A stretch of DNA of 64,000 nt from Actinomyces viscosus (GTDB lineage Bacteria > Actinomycetota > Actinomycetes > Actinomycetales > Actinomycetaceae). Position numbers and translations under genes: made by a program. The notes under the pieces were generated by a model. It saw nothing but the letters and a program-made list of their open reading frames with translations, was not told the DNA's origin and did not search any database. The DNA is taken from NCBI RefSeq assembly GCF_900637975.1, contig NZ_LR134477.1, positions 248,001-312,000 of the forward strand, given 5' to 3'. Shown here one piece after another: positions 11,863-18,067 of the stretch; the first letter of the stretch is position 1, and every line of letters starts with the position of its first letter.

Positions 11863-13145
11863 ATGACTGACGCTGCTGGAGTAGTCGACGTCGCCGTTAT
11901 CGGACTGGGGTACATCGGTCTGCCGACGGCGGCCGTCCTGGCCCGTGCCGGGCTCGACGTCGTCGGAGTGGACCGTGCCCGGGAACGTGTCGAGGCCGTC
12001 AACCGCGGGGAGCTCCTCTTCCTCGAGGACGGGCTCGCCGCCGTCCTGGCCGAGCAGGTTGAGGCCGGCCGACTGCGTGCCCAGACGATGATGTCGTCGG
12101 CGCGGAACTACGTCATCGCGGTACCGACGCCGTCGGCGCGGGAGGACCACTCGGCCGATCTCTCCCTGGTCGAGGCCGCCATCGGACAGATCGCCCCTCG
12201 CCTCACCGGGGGAGAGCTCATCGTCCTGGAGTCGACCTGCCCGCCGGGCACCACTCGTGACCTGGCTGAGGCGATCATCTCGATGCGTCCGGACCTCTCC
12301 CTGGACGGCAGTGGCGGACGCGCCCGGGTGCACGTCGCCCACTGCCCCGAACGAGTGCTGCCGGGCCGCATCATGGCCGAGATGGTGACCAACTCCCGGG
12401 TCATCGGCGGCCTGACCCCCGAGGCCGCGAGACTGGCCCGGGACCTGTACGCCACCTTCTGCCGGGGCGACCTGCTCCTCACCGACGTCATCACCGCCGA
12501 GATGGCCAAGCTGGCGGAGAACTCCTTCCGCGACCTCAACATCGCCTTCGCCAATGAGCTGGCCCTCATCTGCGACAGGGTCGGTGTCGATGTCTGGGAG
12601 CTCATCGACCTGGCCAACCGCCATCCGCGCGTCAGCATCCTGAGGCCCGGTCCCGGGGTGGGCGGCCACTGCATCGCCGTGGATCCCTGGTTCCTGGTCT
12701 CCTCAGCGCCCGAGGAGGCCCGGCTCATCCGTACCGCCAGGCAGGTCAACGACTCCCGACCCGCCTACTACGTCGAGCGCATCCACCGGGCGCTGGAGGG
12801 GCTGGTAGCGCCGACGGTGGCGGTGCTCGGCCTGACCTTCAAGGCCGACGTCGACGACCTGCGCCAGTCCCCGGCCCTGGCGATCACCGAGCAGGTGGCC
12901 GCTCATTCACCCATGCCCGGGTCCTGGTCGCTGAGCCGCACGCCACCACGCTCCCATCATCTCTGGCGCAGCGCGCCAACGTACGGCTGACCGGATGCCG
13001 GCAGGCCGTTGAGCAGGCCGACGTCGTCGTGGTCCTCGTCAGTCACCGGGAGTTCGCCGATCTCGACCCGGGGCTGCTTCAGGGGAGGGTCGTCATCGAC
13101 GCCACGGGGCTCTGGGGCCACCAGGATCGTCACCTGACGGGGTAG
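11863..13145 (+). pseudogene. wecC: UDP-N-acetylmannosamine dehydrogenase, frameshifted near residue 347
   Basis: The N-terminal 346 residues are a clear WecC-type NAD-dependent UDP-ManNAc dehydrogenase: VAVIGLGYIGLPTAAVLARA (Rossmann), YVIAVPTPSARE, ESTCPPGTTRD, CPERVLPGR, ENSFRDLNIAFANELALIC and the catalytic Cys in GPGVGGHCIAVDPWF. The expected C-terminal UDP-binding domain is out of frame. The initial frame runs to a stop at 12990 with non-homologous sequence. The +2 frame from about 12909 reads HARVLVAEPHATTLPSS, then ADVVVVLVSHREF and VVIDATGLWG, and stops at 13145. One missing base (or two extra) between about 12895 and 12912 explains this. It may be a true mutation, a phase-variable state or a sequencing error. 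The product would supply UDP-ManNAcA; no wecB is visible here. Confidence 0.85.
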
Positions 13146-13152
13146 GCCGGCG

Positions 13153-13251
13153 GTGAGTGCGCGACGTGTTATCGGTGCGGCCCTGCGCGCGGTGCACCGG
13201 CCCCGGGTCAGTGCCATCGTCAGGGCGGCAGGAGCTGGTCCCCACCTGGAA
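13153..13251 (+). pseudogene. 5' remnant of the glycosyl/glycerophosphotransferase gene cut by the IS
   Basis: Starting at a GTG 7 nt after the wecC stop, this fragment reads SARRVIGAALRAVHRPR and continues for 33 codons to the IS edge, where translation would run into IS sequence. The last 86 bp are repeated on the far side of the IS in the same frame as the downstream gene. It is therefore the original start of that gene. Only the first 13 nt, including the start codon, are unique to this side. Confidence 0.85.
13166..13251 (+). repeat. 86-bp direct repeat, left copy (IS target duplication)
   Basis: Identical over 86 bp to 14919-15004 by direct reading. The copies directly abut the two ends of the IS. 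The sequence is host coding sequence of the interrupted gene, so it is a target-site duplication and not part of the IS. Confidence 0.9.
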
Positions 13252-13317
13252 CCTGACTTGGCTCATTGCGGGGTGGTTGGGTCGCTGGGGGTGTGGTTGT
13301 GGTTGGGATTGTGCGGG

Positions 13318-13345
13318 TTGCGTGGGTGGGGGTGCGCACTAACGT
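13318..13345 (+). promoter_or_regulatory. Transposase promoter, leaderless arrangement
   Basis: TTGCGT (13318-13323), a 16-bp spacer and TAACGT (13340-13345), then exactly 6 nt to the transposase ATG without a Shine-Dalgarno. This suggests a leaderless transposase mRNA starting at the ATG. Functional assignment is inferred from spacing. Confidence 0.5.
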
Positions 13346-13351
13346 GGGGGT

Positions 13352-14908
13352 ATGAGTCCGTACGTTCGCGCGGTCAGGACGGCGTCGGGGGCCCGTGCGG
13401 TGCAGATCGTGTACTCCTCCCGCAAAGGAGCCCGCAGCATCGAGCACATCGGCTCAGCCCATGACGATGCTGAGCTGGCGGCGCTTAAGGAGGTCGCCAG
13501 GCAGCGTCTCAACGCTGGCCAGCTCGGCCTTGACCTGCCGGGCCTGAACGGTGCGGACGTCGGGGGAAAGGGACCGCAGGCGCTGGCTGGGGCCGGGCGC
13601 GTAGCGCCGATCACCTCCAACCGGATGGGAGTGCTCCTGGAGACGCTGGAAGCGGCTTGGAAGGCAGTGGGCCTGGACGGGCTCGGTGGTGCTGACGAGG
13701 TCTTCCGCCAGCTCGTTACCGCCAGGCTGATCGAGCCGACCAGCAAGCAGGGCTCCCTGCGGGTCCTGGCCGAGGCAGGTCTGACGCCGGTGTCCTACGC
13801 CACGGTCAAGCGTCATCTGCCCCGCTACGCCGCTGAGGAGTTCACCCGGGGCCTGTCGCGCCTGCTGGCCGGACGCGCCCGCATCGACCGGGCCTCGCTG
13901 GTCCTGTTCGACGTGACGACCCTGTACTTCGAGACCGACAAGGCCGACGGTTTCCGCGAGCCGGGCTTCTCGAAGGAAAGACGCCTGGAGCCGCAGATCA
14001 CGGTAGGGCTGCTCACCGACGAGACCGGGTTCCCTCTACGGGCCGAGGCCTTTGAGGGCAACAAGGCCGAGACCGCCACCATGATCCCGACGATCAACGA
14101 CTTCATGAACGCCTACAACCTCGACGACGTGGTGGTCGTCGCCGACGCCGGGATGATCGGCGCCGCCAACAAGCAGGCCCTGGAGGCAGCCGGCCTGTCT
14201 TACGTGCTGGGCTCACGCACCTCACGCGTCCCCCACGTGATCAGCTCCTGGCACGACAGCCACCCCGACCAGGACGTCCCCGACGGGCTGACCCTGACCC
14301 AGCCCTGGCCCGCCGGAGCCAGCGACCAGCGCCGTGACGAGACCATCTGCTACCGCTACAGCGCCGACAGGGCCCGACGCACGCTACACGGGATCGACAC
14401 CCAGGTCGCCAAGGCCGAGAAAGCCGTCGCAGGAAAGATCCCCGTCAAACGCAACCGCTTCGTGCACCTGTCCGGCGCCACCAGGAGCATCAACCGCGAC
14501 CTGGAGACACGGGCCCGGACCCTGGCCGGGTGGAAGGGATACGTCACCAACCTGCCCAACCCCGACCCCGAGACGGTCATCGGTGCCTACCACCGCCTGT
14601 ACAACATCGAGAAGTCCTTCCGCATGTCCAAGTCCGACCTGAGAGCACGCCCCATCTACCACCACCTGCGCCAGTCCATCGAGGCCCACCTGACCATCGT
14701 CACCGCCGCCCTGGCCATGGCCCGATGGCTGGAGAACACCACCGGCTGGTCCATCAGACGCCTGATCACCACCAGACGCCTGATCACCACCGCCCGCCGC
14801 TACCGCACCATCACCATCAACATCACCGGACACACCCTCACAGCCGCCGCCCCACTCCCACCCGACCTCATCCAAGCCCTCAACAACATCCACCACGACA
14901 CTAAATGA
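13352..14908 (+). CDS. IS1634-family DDE transposase
   Basis: A 518-residue IS4-superfamily transposase. The catalytic DDE triad can be placed at LVLFDVTTLYFET (first D, near residue 189), DDVVVVADAGMIGAANKQAL (second D, near 265) and YNIEKSFRMSKSDLRARP (E, near 420), with the YREK-like spacing of the IS1634 group. Near the C-terminus an 18-bp tandem duplication (14756-14773 and 14774-14791) gives the repeated RRLITT. The gene lies in the same reading frame as the downstream interrupted gene, separated from it by its own TGA stop. Confidence 0.9.
   Translation: MSPYVRAVRTASGARAVQIVYSSRKGARSIEHIGSAHDDAELAALKEVARQRLNAGQLGLDLPGLNGADVGGKGPQALAGAGRVAPITSNRMGVLLETLEAAWKAVGLDGLGGADEVFRQLVTARLIEPTSKQGSLRVLAEAGLTPVSYATVKRHLPRYAAEEFTRGLSRLLAGRARIDRASLVLFDVTTLYFETDKADGFREPGFSKERRLEPQITVGLLTDETGFPLRAEAFEGNKAETATMIPTINDFMNAYNLDDVVVVADAGMIGAANKQALEAAGLSYVLGSRTSRVPHVISSWHDSHPDQDVPDGLTLTQPWPAGASDQRRDETICYRYSADRARRTLHGIDTQVAKAEKAVAGKIPVKRNRFVHLSGATRSINRDLETRARTLAGWKGYVTNLPNPDPETVIGAYHRLYNIEKSFRMSKSDLRARPIYHHLRQSIEAHLTIVTAALAMARWLENTTGWSIRRLITTRRLITTARRYRTITINITGHTLTAAAPLPPDLIQALNNIHHDTK
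14756..14791 (+). repeat. 18-bp tandem duplication inside the transposase
   Basis: Two exact adjacent copies of an 18-bp unit beginning AGACGCCTGATC encode RRLITT twice, so the reading frame is kept. It is near the transposase C-terminus and may be a slippage duplication. Confidence 0.8.
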
Positions 14909-14918
14909 GCCAACTCAG

Positions 14919-15004
14919 GTGTTATCGGTGCGGCCCTGCGCGCGGTGCACCGGCCCCGGGTCAGTGCCATCGTCAGGGCGGCAGGAGCTGGTCCCCACCT
15001 GGAA
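14919..15004 (+). repeat. 86-bp direct repeat, right copy (IS target duplication)
   Basis: Exact second copy of 13166-13251, abutting the right IS end. It restores nearly the whole 5' coding sequence of the interrupted gene except its first 13 nt. Confidence 0.9.
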
Positions 15005-18000
15005 GGGGCGATCCGCTCAGTGCTCAACCAGAGCGTCAAGGACCTGGAGGTTCTGGTCGTCGTCGAGCGGGAGAGCGCTGGTGAGCAGGTCGCGGTTCGC
15101 CTGGCCGCCAGGGACCGGCGCGTTCGGGTCCTGCGCTGCGACCCGGACCAAGACCCGGGCAGCGACCTGGATGCCGCCCTGAGACGGGCCCGAGGACGCC
15201 TGGCCACGATCATCGACGGTGGAGACGCCCTTCTGGCCGGTGCCTACCAGTCGATGACGCGGTCCCTGGACCTCTCGGGCTCCGACGTCGTCGTCGCCCG
15301 CTCGCGCCCGTTGACCTCTCCAGCCGCCTCGAGGATACGGGCCGCTGCCCCGAAGGCACCGCGCAGGGGCCAACGACTTGCCCAGGTGCCTGAGGTGGTT
15401 GAGGACCTGGTGTCCGGCGCGGTGATGGCTCCGCCACGGCTGTGGGCGCTGTCGAAGGCGGGCGGTGCAACCGGCTCCGTCCGGGCGTCCCTGGCTGTGA
15501 GAGCTCTTGCGGTGCTTGTGTCCGGGAGGCGTATCGACCTGCTGGACCAGGAGGTCTACACCTGGCGTGCCGGGTCGGCGGCTGTCGGGGCGAGCCTGGA
15601 GGCCGCCCCCGAGGCTCTCCTGGAGGAGGTGGGCGCCCTGGCGCAGATGACCGTTCGCGCGCCGGCGGCCGTGCACCGGAGCCTGGTCGTCGGACGACTG
15701 GGCCGGGACCTCGTGCGCCTGGCTGCGCGCTCGCGGCAGGAGCACCCTGACTTCGGCGGCAGGCTCCGGAGCGCCGCGCGGACCGTGCTCCCAGCCGCTG
15801 AGGACCCCCTCTGGGAGTCGATCGAGCTGCTCGATCGCGTGGCGCTGTGGCTCCTCACCCGAGACGAGCCGGCCAGGGCCGAGGAGCTTGAGGAGCTGCT
15901 CGGCCGGAGAGCTGAGGACCTCGTCTCTGTTCCCCTGACCCTTGAGAAGGGTGCGCTGCTCCCCGACCCGTGCCTTGTGAGGCAGATCAAGGTGCCCGGC
16001 CGACTCACCGAGATCCGGGACGTCGACCTCAGGCTGAACGTCAGCACCGACACGGCCCGCTGGGTCGGCCCCAGGACCCTGGAGGTGAACGGCTGCGCCT
16101 GGGTGCCGGGGGTTGATCCGAGCCTGACCGACCTTCCGGTCATTGAAGCCGTCGACGAGGCCGGAAGGGGTCTGGCGCGCACCGAGGTGGAGCGCTGCGA
16201 GGCGCCCCGGGCCGACCTGGAGGCCGGGGACCCGTGGCGCTCCTACCTCGCATCGGGGATCACGGTGCGGTTGACGGTCCGGCCCGACCGCACTACCTGG
16301 TTCCGAGTGGTGACCCGCGTGGCGGGACGAACGGTCTCAGCATGGATGCCGCAACCGGCCGGCTCGAGCAGGCGACGCCCGGGGCCGCCGGAGTCCGGGC
16401 GGTGCCTGGTCGCCTCCGGTGAGCGCGGGCTGCTTGAGGTCTCCCCAGCGGAAACCGGGAACCGGGGGAGCGCGGTGCCACCGCAGGAGCAGGTCGCCGT
16501 CGTTGTCACCGGAGCCCTTCTGTCCGCCGACGCAACGCTTGTGCTGACCGGAACGGTGGCGGGAGCTCCAGAGGACCTGGACATCGTCCTGGCCTGCAGC
16601 AGCGCCCGCAGGACGACGCCCGCCGCCCTGGCACCGGGGAACAGGTGGTCGGTCAGGCTCGACCTGGCCGATCCCGACGTCGAGCTGGGTACCTACGCAC
16701 TGCTCTGGCGGACCGGGACCGGGGGAGCACTGCACCGCCCCCTTGAGGGCACCTGCCTGGCAGGGCATGAGGTGGACGGCCCTGCCACTGAGGTGCCCGT
16801 CGCCCCGGAACCTGCCGGCAGCCGGGTGGTGCCGGGTCGCGGTGTCGTCGGGGGCGTCACCGGTCGCCCCGCGCGCCGCGCCCGGATCATCACCCGTCGA
16901 GACGGGTCCGTGGCCCTCGCCGTCATTCCCCCGCTGACGCTGCAGGAACGTTCGACGAGAGGCCGCTGGGTCCTGGTTGAGCGTGAGGCACCGGATTTAA
17001 GACCGGGAGTTTTCCTGGAGTCCTTCGGTGGACGTCGTGGGGGAGACAACCCGGCCGCGATCTGCGAGGACCTGGCCGCTCACGGCGTGACCGTGCCGCT
17101 GTGGTGGTCGGTGGTCGATGGGACGGTCCCGGTTCCGGCGGGGGCGGTTCCCGTCGTCGTCGGATCACCGGAGTGGACGGAGGCGCTGCGCGGCTCACGC
17201 GTCATCGTCACCAACGACCACCTCCCGCAGTGGTTCTCGAAGCGCGAGGGGCAGCGCCTGCTCCAGACGTGGCACGGCACCCCGGTCAAGAGACTGCTGC
17301 ACGACGCCGCCCCGGGAGCCGTCAGTCTGCGGTACCGCCGGCTCATGAGCCGCCAGGTCCCCCAGTGGGACCTGCTGCTCGCCCAGAACCAGGAAGCCGG
17401 CCAACGCCTGAAGCGGGCGCTGGGATACTCCGGAGAGGTCCGGGTGGGGGAGTACCCCCGAAACGTGAGGATGCTCGGGGGTGCGGACCTGAGAAGGCGG
17501 GTGCGTCGCGAGCTCGGTATCGGTGAGGAGCGGCGGACCGTCCTCTGGGCCCCGACCTGGCGCGAGGACCTGCGTCACGCGGACGTGAGGGGCGGGCGCC
17601 ATGGTCAGCTCAGCAGCATATGGGCGGACGCTCCGGCTCTGGCCGACCGTCTTGACACGGTGATCCTCATGCGCAGCCACCACATGAACAGGACGAGACC
17701 CGGCAAGGGGATGATTGACGTCAGTCGGTACCCGAGCGTCGAGGAGCTCATGGTGGCGGCCGACGTCCTGGTCTCGGACTACTCGAGCATCTTCTTCGAC
17801 TTCGCCCTGACCGGTAAGCCGGCCGTGATCTATGCGCCAGACCTGGAGCACTACCGCGACGTCGAAAGAGGCCTGTACGACGACTGGCCCCGGAGGTCAG
17901 GACGTCCCGTTGCCCTTGAGCAGGAACGGCTCGCCTCCCACCTGTCCCGGATCCTGGGCGGTGCCGACGCCGCTACGGCTCGCAAGGCGCCGCCCGAGGT

Positions 18001-18067
18001 GGATCCCTCACCGATCCTTGACAACCTGGCGTGGATTCGAGAGTGGATCACACGTTTCCTGGACTGA
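14945..18067 (+). CDS. GT2-like / CDP-glycerol glycerophosphotransferase (TagB/TagF-like) fusion, start displaced by IS
   Basis: A protein of about 1040 residues. The N-terminal part looks like a GT2 fold start (RVSAIVRAAGAGPHLEGAIR, SVLNQSVKDLEVLVVVE and an IIDGGDALLAGAYQSM segment). The middle (about 300-640) is unassigned beta-rich sequence. The C-terminal 340 residues are a CDP-glycerol:poly(glycerophosphate) glycerophosphotransferase domain with LLQTWHGTPVKRLLHD (HGTP near 777), VLWAPTWRED and VSDYSSIFFDF (near 943). Such enzymes polymerise or prime teichoic-acid-like polymers at the membrane. The IS removed its natural GTG start and ribosome-binding region. The in-frame stop just upstream is the transposase TGA (14906-14908), and the internal GTG at 14945 has no Shine-Dalgarno. 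Expression would need reinitiation or read-through and may be lost. Confidence 0.8.
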   Translation: MHRPRVSAIVRAAGAGPHLEGAIRSVLNQSVKDLEVLVVVERESAGEQVAVRLAARDRRVRVLRCDPDQDPGSDLDAALRRARGRLATIIDGGDALLAGAYQSMTRSLDLSGSDVVVARSRPLTSPAASRIRAAAPKAPRRGQRLAQVPEVVEDLVSGAVMAPPRLWALSKAGGATGSVRASLAVRALAVLVSGRRIDLLDQEVYTWRAGSAAVGASLEAAPEALLEEVGALAQMTVRAPAAVHRSLVVGRLGRDLVRLAARSRQEHPDFGGRLRSAARTVLPAAEDPLWESIELLDRVALWLLTRDEPARAEELEELLGRRAEDLVSVPLTLEKGALLPDPCLVRQIKVPGRLTEIRDVDLRLNVSTDTARWVGPRTLEVNGCAWVPGVDPSLTDLPVIEAVDEAGRGLARTEVERCEAPRADLEAGDPWRSYLASGITVRLTVRPDRTTWFRVVTRVAGRTVSAWMPQPAGSSRRRPGPPESGRCLVASGERGLLEVSPAETGNRGSAVPPQEQVAVVVTGALLSADATLVLTGTVAGAPEDLDIVLACSSARRTTPAALAPGNRWSVRLDLADPDVELGTYALLWRTGTGGALHRPLEGTCLAGHEVDGPATEVPVAPEPAGSRVVPGRGVVGGVTGRPARRARIITRRDGSVALAVIPPLTLQERSTRGRWVLVEREAPDLRPGVFLESFGGRRGGDNPAAICEDLAAHGVTVPLWWSVVDGTVPVPAGAVPVVVGSPEWTEALRGSRVIVTNDHLPQWFSKREGQRLLQTWHGTPVKRLLHDAAPGAVSLRYRRLMSRQVPQWDLLLAQNQEAGQRLKRALGYSGEVRVGEYPRNVRMLGGADLRRRVRRELGIGEERRTVLWAPTWREDLRHADVRGGRHGQLSSIWADAPALADRLDTVILMRSHHMNRTRPGKGMIDVSRYPSVEELMVAADVLVSDYSSIFFDFALTGKPAVIYAPDLEHYRDVERGLYDDWPRRSGRPVALEQERLASHLSRILGGADAATARKAPPEVDPSPILDNLAWIREWITRFLD

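Follow-up and report, generated by a model that had tools for sequence, protein, structure and literature searches.

Most insertion sequences (IS) generate a short target duplication of fixed size. In the window analyzed here, a stretch of 64,000 nucleotides of Actinomyces viscosus (contig NZ_LR134477.1, positions 248,001 to 312,000), an IS within a TagF-like gene lies between two identical 86-nt copies of host sequence (13166-13251 and 14919-15004; all features are on the forward strand unless noted), which raises the question of how so long a duplication arose. A sequence-only reading of this DNA had described a 1667-bp element flanked by 86-bp repeats. Comparison within the window confirmed the identity of the two copies and the position of the element between them, and shifted both lengths by one base. 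Given that the G at 14919 mismatches the other flank in five of the 11 genomic copies, it was assigned to the IS, which then has ends of the form CCTGA...TCAGG. The IS is therefore 1668 bp long (13252-14919) and the duplication is an exact repeat of 85 bp, with a left copy at 13167-13251 (13166-13251 if the shared G is included) and a right copy at 14920-15004. The same assignment turned two seemingly repeat-less copies elsewhere in the genome into 5-bp duplications.

The ends of this element carry near-perfect terminal inverted repeats that match at 15 of 16 positions, as originally noted: the left one, CCTGACTTGGCTCATT, occupies 13252-13267, and the right one, CCTGAGTTGGCTCATT read inward, occupies 14904-14919 on the reverse strand. 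The transposase open reading frame (13352-14908, 518 aa) passed profile NF033559 with 360.7 bits (cut-off 100), in agreement with the proposed IS1634-family identity. Its DDE residues are D187, D265, and E420, invariant among 46 aligned transposases, as is the motif Y413-(2)-L416-(3)-E420-(6)-K427. The transposase gene also contains an 18-nt tandem repeat (14751-14786), present as two units here and in the other two of three 1668-bp copies, and as one unit in eight 1650-bp copies.

The interrupted gene encodes GT2 and CDP-glycerol glycerophosphotransferase domains, which bears out its description as TagF-like. Its cut-off 5' end (13153-13251) begins with a GTG start at 13153, is in frame with the portion downstream of the IS, and is collinear with six empty sites in relatives (see below). 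The rest of the gene (14945-18067) is a frame of 1040 aa with an internal GTG start and GT2 plus Glyphos_transf domains. The native start codon and upstream region are indeed missing after the IS; the right copy restores the reading frame except for the first 14 nt, one more than had been counted. The frame opening with GTG at 14945 retains both domains and yields a predicted 1040-aa protein. No sigma-70-like promoter was found between 13000 and 15200, and between the transposase stop codon, which shares its frame with the TagF-like gene, and the open frame of that gene (14906-15004) no second stop intervenes. That the long duplication nearly repairs the gene disruption is plausible and a reasonable guess from this arrangement. 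Upstream, the reading frame of a UDP-ManNAc-dehydrogenase-like gene (11863-13144) apparently breaks near 12910, either truly or through a sequencing error, and its C-terminal domain covers just 27 of the 103 positions of its profile.

If the duplication arose with the insertion, an uninterrupted locus should hold a single copy of the repeated stretch. A 3.2-kb query starting at the right copy was compared with 49 genomes of the genus, that of the window included, and gave a near-whole-query match in six other genomes (73-76% identity) and partial matches or none in the remaining ones. In all six comparable congeners, the upstream flank, one copy of the 85-bp stretch, and the downstream flank are contiguous without an IS; 80-81 of the 85 bp aligned at 81-85% identity, and the junction letters are collinear with the window locus. 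The number of independent witnesses is below six, since three of these loci closely resemble one another. Such an empty site is hard to reconcile with insertion of the IS between the copies of a pre-existing tandem duplication, a reading that nothing observed favors and that is refuted at this locus; across the survey described below, the repeat also directly abuts the anchored IS ends in 72 long cases, and we consider this origin of the long repeats hardly conceivable. For the genomic copy with a 367-bp duplication, the empty-site comparison in relatives returned only broken synteny. Chance was excluded as a source of the duplications, because 952 control pairings of the left flank of one element with the right flank of another gave 17 repeats of 3 bp, four of 4 bp, and five of 5 bp, and none of at least 6 bp. 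Judged from sequence comparison, the 85-bp duplication was created by the insertion itself.

The single 3.49-Mb contig of this genome carries 11 full copies of the IS with the same ends, the outer 30 nt being identical at both ends in all of them. Their duplications measure 5, 5, 21, 25, 35, 77, 83, 85, 129, 181, and 367 bp; nine of the 11 are thus 21-367 bp long, and two are exactly 5 bp (TAGGA and TATGA). Neither a two-copy empty site nor consistently short repeats at the other IS copies occurred, and the sequence-only reading of a long target duplication stood on both counts. Four letter-identical copies carry duplications of 77, 35, 129, and 21 bp, and duplication length is therefore not set by the IS sequence. 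Nor are the long duplications due to the host: among three further multi-copy IS in this genome, all 12 copies tested lacked a repeat longer than 7 bp (repeats of up to 700 bp were sought; L342 lay outside these 12 copies and one group, X, was poorly delimited). One of these control IS had repeats of 5-7 bp in three of four copies, and another was bounded by CTAG in three copies. As an observation in its own right, the 21-bp duplication at locus L015 sits in a terminator-like hairpin; no other pair of attack sites in the whole survey set encloses a strong inverted repeat (the shared run is 15 at L015 and 9 in the runner-up).

We surveyed actinobacterial relatives in named contigs and further genomes, taking in part of the matches listed. 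Inverted repeats of the CCYG type served to anchor the ends, and direct repeats of at least 3 bp were accepted. The resulting 132 elements, which replaced an earlier set of 105 candidates with five spurious ones removed, were reduced to 122 by setting aside ten mis-anchored loci; the 11 copies from the genome of the window are included. Exactly 5 bp were duplicated in 26 elements and 19-976 bp in 72, and 24 had no repeat. The long repeats have a median of 91.5 bp (n = 72), 68 of the 72 are perfect, and the longest, 976 bp, belongs to Corynebacterium riegelii (L046). No repeats of 3, 4, or 6-18 bp occurred among the 122 elements; a lognormal distribution fitted to the long class by itself would put only some 3% of the repeats in the 6-18 bp interval. 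This empty interval is not strict, because relatives that carry passenger genes, counted outside the 122, add duplications of 14 and 17 bp (six of 11 such loci had repeats, of 20, 49, 49, 31, 14, and 17 bp; L050 had none at its outer end, and four others yielded no repeat-bearing outer end), and because the literature gives values of 13 bp (PMC10066036) and 8 bp (PMC2266710). Taken together, the surveyed sequences demonstrate a two-state duplication size, either exactly 5 bp or long (14-976 bp), common to a wide group of actinobacterial relatives.

Several candidate regularities were rejected. All 11 duplications in the genome of the window have odd lengths, but just 42 of the 72 long ones do overall, and the odd-length rule was dropped. 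Hairpin or cruciform targets gave one clear case (L015) and no clear overall excess (p = 0.06), and asymmetry of the IS ends was set aside as a cause since 5-bp and long elements have rather similar inverted-repeat scores (p = 0.10, distant group). Helical phasing was absent from the long-duplication lengths for periods of 10-11.

The survey also brought to light some composite and unusual arrangements. In Gordonia sp. ABSL11-1, two elements on one contig (L034 and L035) have the same orientation and no repeat of their own, and an exact repeat of 352 bp is present in both outer flanks. This arrangement would fit a composite transposon, about 22 kb in size, that duplicated 352 bp of its target. 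Neighboring copies of the same IS, with transposase genes a few hundred bases apart, occur at L128 and L130 (G027), L263 (G613), and L286 (G729). Six of the ten mis-anchored loci turned out to be a passenger-carrying element. One IS1634-type transposon, 2.9 kb long and equipped with two left ends (about 1636-4535 in L023), has a glyoxalase-family gene and an alpha/beta-hydrolase fragment ahead of its transposase; its loci are L023, L024, L027, L041, L044, L050, L053, L089, L069, and L072. Where they align, its copies in records of Kibdelosporangium, Amycolatopsis, and Actinomadura share 98-99% identity, a level that suggests recent spread.

The letters at the junctions differ between the two size classes. 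Targets of 5-bp insertions are mostly TCNGA-like, with C at position 2 and G at position 4 together in 20 of 26 (40 of 52 junctions); the two 5-bp sites of the element in the window, TAGGA and TATGA, do not fit this form. Long insertions, with 144 junctions in all, combine C2 with G4 at only 14 of them. The 144 junctions have T at +1 in 89 and A at +5 in 68 (p = 4e-17 for A at +5), with A at +2 to +4 and at +6 to +11 in just 14-33, and, on the other side, C at -1 in 77 and G at -2 in 68. The excess of A at +5 persisted when each transposase cluster was represented by a single insertion (about 43 of 94, p = 8e-11). An A at this position is what a 5-bp register demands of the partner end, and the two signature-bearing junctions of one long insertion lie up to 976 bp apart. 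Given that T-N3-A is found at each of the distant junctions, each end seemingly captured its own asymmetric target in a 5-bp frame. The contrast between symmetric sites and half-sites is partly tied to lineage: in the transposase clusters that make both sizes, C2 and G4 co-occurred in five of ten 5-bp insertions versus four of 32 long junctions (p = 0.023), so that support from mixed clusters comes from 10 insertions and 32 junctions; when general symmetry was scored in these clusters, the difference fell short of significance (p = 0.13).

The two outcomes are unevenly distributed among transposases. Mapped onto a tree that comprises 56 transposase clusters, the outcome changes eight times, compared with 12.4 times in shuffles. 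Among insertions with a repeat, long duplications make up 41 of 43 in the close group and 31 of 55 in the other group, and two clades have 5-bp repeats alone (14 of 14). Four clusters, that of the window included, make both sizes; one of these, L270, pools near-identical transposases from several genomes. From this pattern, we infer that the frequency with which the two ends uncouple is probably a trait of the transposase lineage.

We think it rather likely that the locus in the window reflects insertion into the TagF-like gene by a transposase whose ends join the target either coupled, 5 bp apart, or uncoupled, at two sites, with the stretch between them copied. At a symmetric site (TCNGA), both 3' ends of the excised IS would attack together, 5 bp apart. 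At an asymmetric captured site (CG^TCNNA-like), one end would be joined alone, and the remaining end would go to another site of this kind some distance beyond, which lies on the opposite strand and points toward the first. The stretch between the joints would then be copied, by repair or by strand-displacement synthesis, and so duplicated in full. A broader version, which we advance tentatively and hold to be not quite an even prospect, is that IS1634-type transposases possess a built-in second insertion mode that uses convergent half-sites at most about 1 kb apart and replicates the target between them, with a balance of modes that is set by lineage and could be mapped to residues. The polarity of the events bears on two-site joining in both directions. 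In its favor, long duplications outnumber repeat-less elements with adequate flanks by 72 to 13 (p = 5e-11 against even odds; the 13 are those of the 24 repeat-less rows with long enough flanks, and they include the composite halves L034 and L035). Given that a random order of the two sites predicts parity, polarity is biased to duplication; against two-site joining, the data offer no explanation for this bias.

The same imbalance weighs on two other readings. If the two ends attacked sister chromatids, or two supercoil loops that met by chance, the order of the sites would decide between duplication and deletion; variable lengths and separate target signatures would follow, and the 13 repeat-less copies, as possible deletions, do share the junction letters (T at +1 in 16 of 26 and A at +5 in 13 of 26). 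Deletions should then be about as frequent as duplications, contrary to the 72 versus 13 observed, and a deletion was not shown in any of the three repeat-less copies followed in relatives (L131 and L237, which adjoin multicopy DNA, and L221, at a synteny break). Looping also predicts few short distances and a 10.5-bp phasing, whereas many of the distances are 19-60 bp and unphased. On these grounds, we regard chance contact as unlikely. Two nearby 5-bp insertions in the same orientation on sister chromosomes could likewise leave, after crossover, one IS flanked by the intervening stretch. Such an event would also place a 5-bp signature at each junction, as observed, and composite and neighboring IS arrangements do exist; it would nevertheless require two close insertions for most copies and predicts deletions in numbers equal to duplications, and it sits poorly with a close group that is long in 41 of 43 insertions beside two clades with 5 bp in 14 of 14. 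This makes crossover quite improbable as a general source.

A last alternative is a special form of the favored two-site joining, in which synthesis precedes the second joining: once the first end is joined, the target 3' end set free would be extended by a polymerase with strand displacement, and joining of the second end would follow in the wake of the moving fork, so that duplication length reflects the delay. This order of events would account for why polarity is biased, why the lengths have a long tail, and why they show no phasing, and an Acidiphilium IS1634-family transposase is reported to bind the sliding clamp (PMC4549789). A simple clamp-binding pattern of that form was missing from the last 60 residues in 55 of 56 transposases, however, and a link to the replication machinery is therefore not supported here. 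Synthesis before the second joining and two attacks followed by repair of a wide stagger would leave indistinguishable sequences, and we treat the delayed joining as possible, though on present evidence somewhat doubtful.

Should the broader version of two-site joining be correct, the element duplicates stretches of its target as a built-in second mode of insertion. The survey itself shows that an IS of this type can copy a stretch of the gene at its landing place. It also makes the puzzle of long duplications testable, with two discrete outcomes, separate signatures at the joints, and sister transposases that seemingly always produce one or the other. The long variable duplications of IS1549 and IS1634 were reportedly described in 1998-1999, and the element class and its long duplications were already known from these two elements. 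What is new is the two-state size, the separate T-N3-A signature at each distant junction, and the symmetric TCNGA sites of the 5-bp insertions; in the open-access papers searched, we found neither the two-state distribution with its split target signature nor a mechanism proposed after 2008, and a 2008 review states that none had been proposed until then (PMC2266710).

In the description of the IS1634 family given in that review, elements measure 1500-2000 bp, have ends of the form C-----YT, and combine a DDE triad with Y..E..K, usually lacking the R of YREK (PMC2266710). The element in the window has all of these features, at 1668 bp, with ends CCTGACTT and CCTGAGTT, and it shares the duplication habit of the family (5-6 bp, or long and variable) with two of 11 copies at 5 bp and nine of 11 at 21-367 bp. 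Strict IS4-family membership was rejected, with L416 in place of the R of YREK and 31.8 bits for NF033592 (cut-off 115), as were the IS1380 (24.2 bits, cut-off 180) and IS701 (24.0 bits, cut-off 150) families; the fold search covered likely relatives only. Tn5/IS50 of the IS4 family differs from our element in its complete YREK, which in IS4-family elements accompanies duplications of about 7-13 bp, according to that review (PMC2266710). Within the IS1634 family, published reports give short duplications of 6 bp for ISGka5 and ISPfe2 and 5-6 bp for ISTth3 (PMC8024623, PMC3281130, PMC6352166), in contrast to the element in the window, long in most of its copies. The closest likeness, by published description, is to IS1549 of Mycobacterium smegmatis and IS1634 of Mycoplasma mycoides, IS1634-family elements with long variable direct repeats of 8-514 bp (PMC2266710), one IS1549 insertion having 13 bp (PMC10066036). 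Unlike these two, the element in the window produces both exactly 5-bp and long repeats, and its surveyed relatives reach a maximum of 976 bp.
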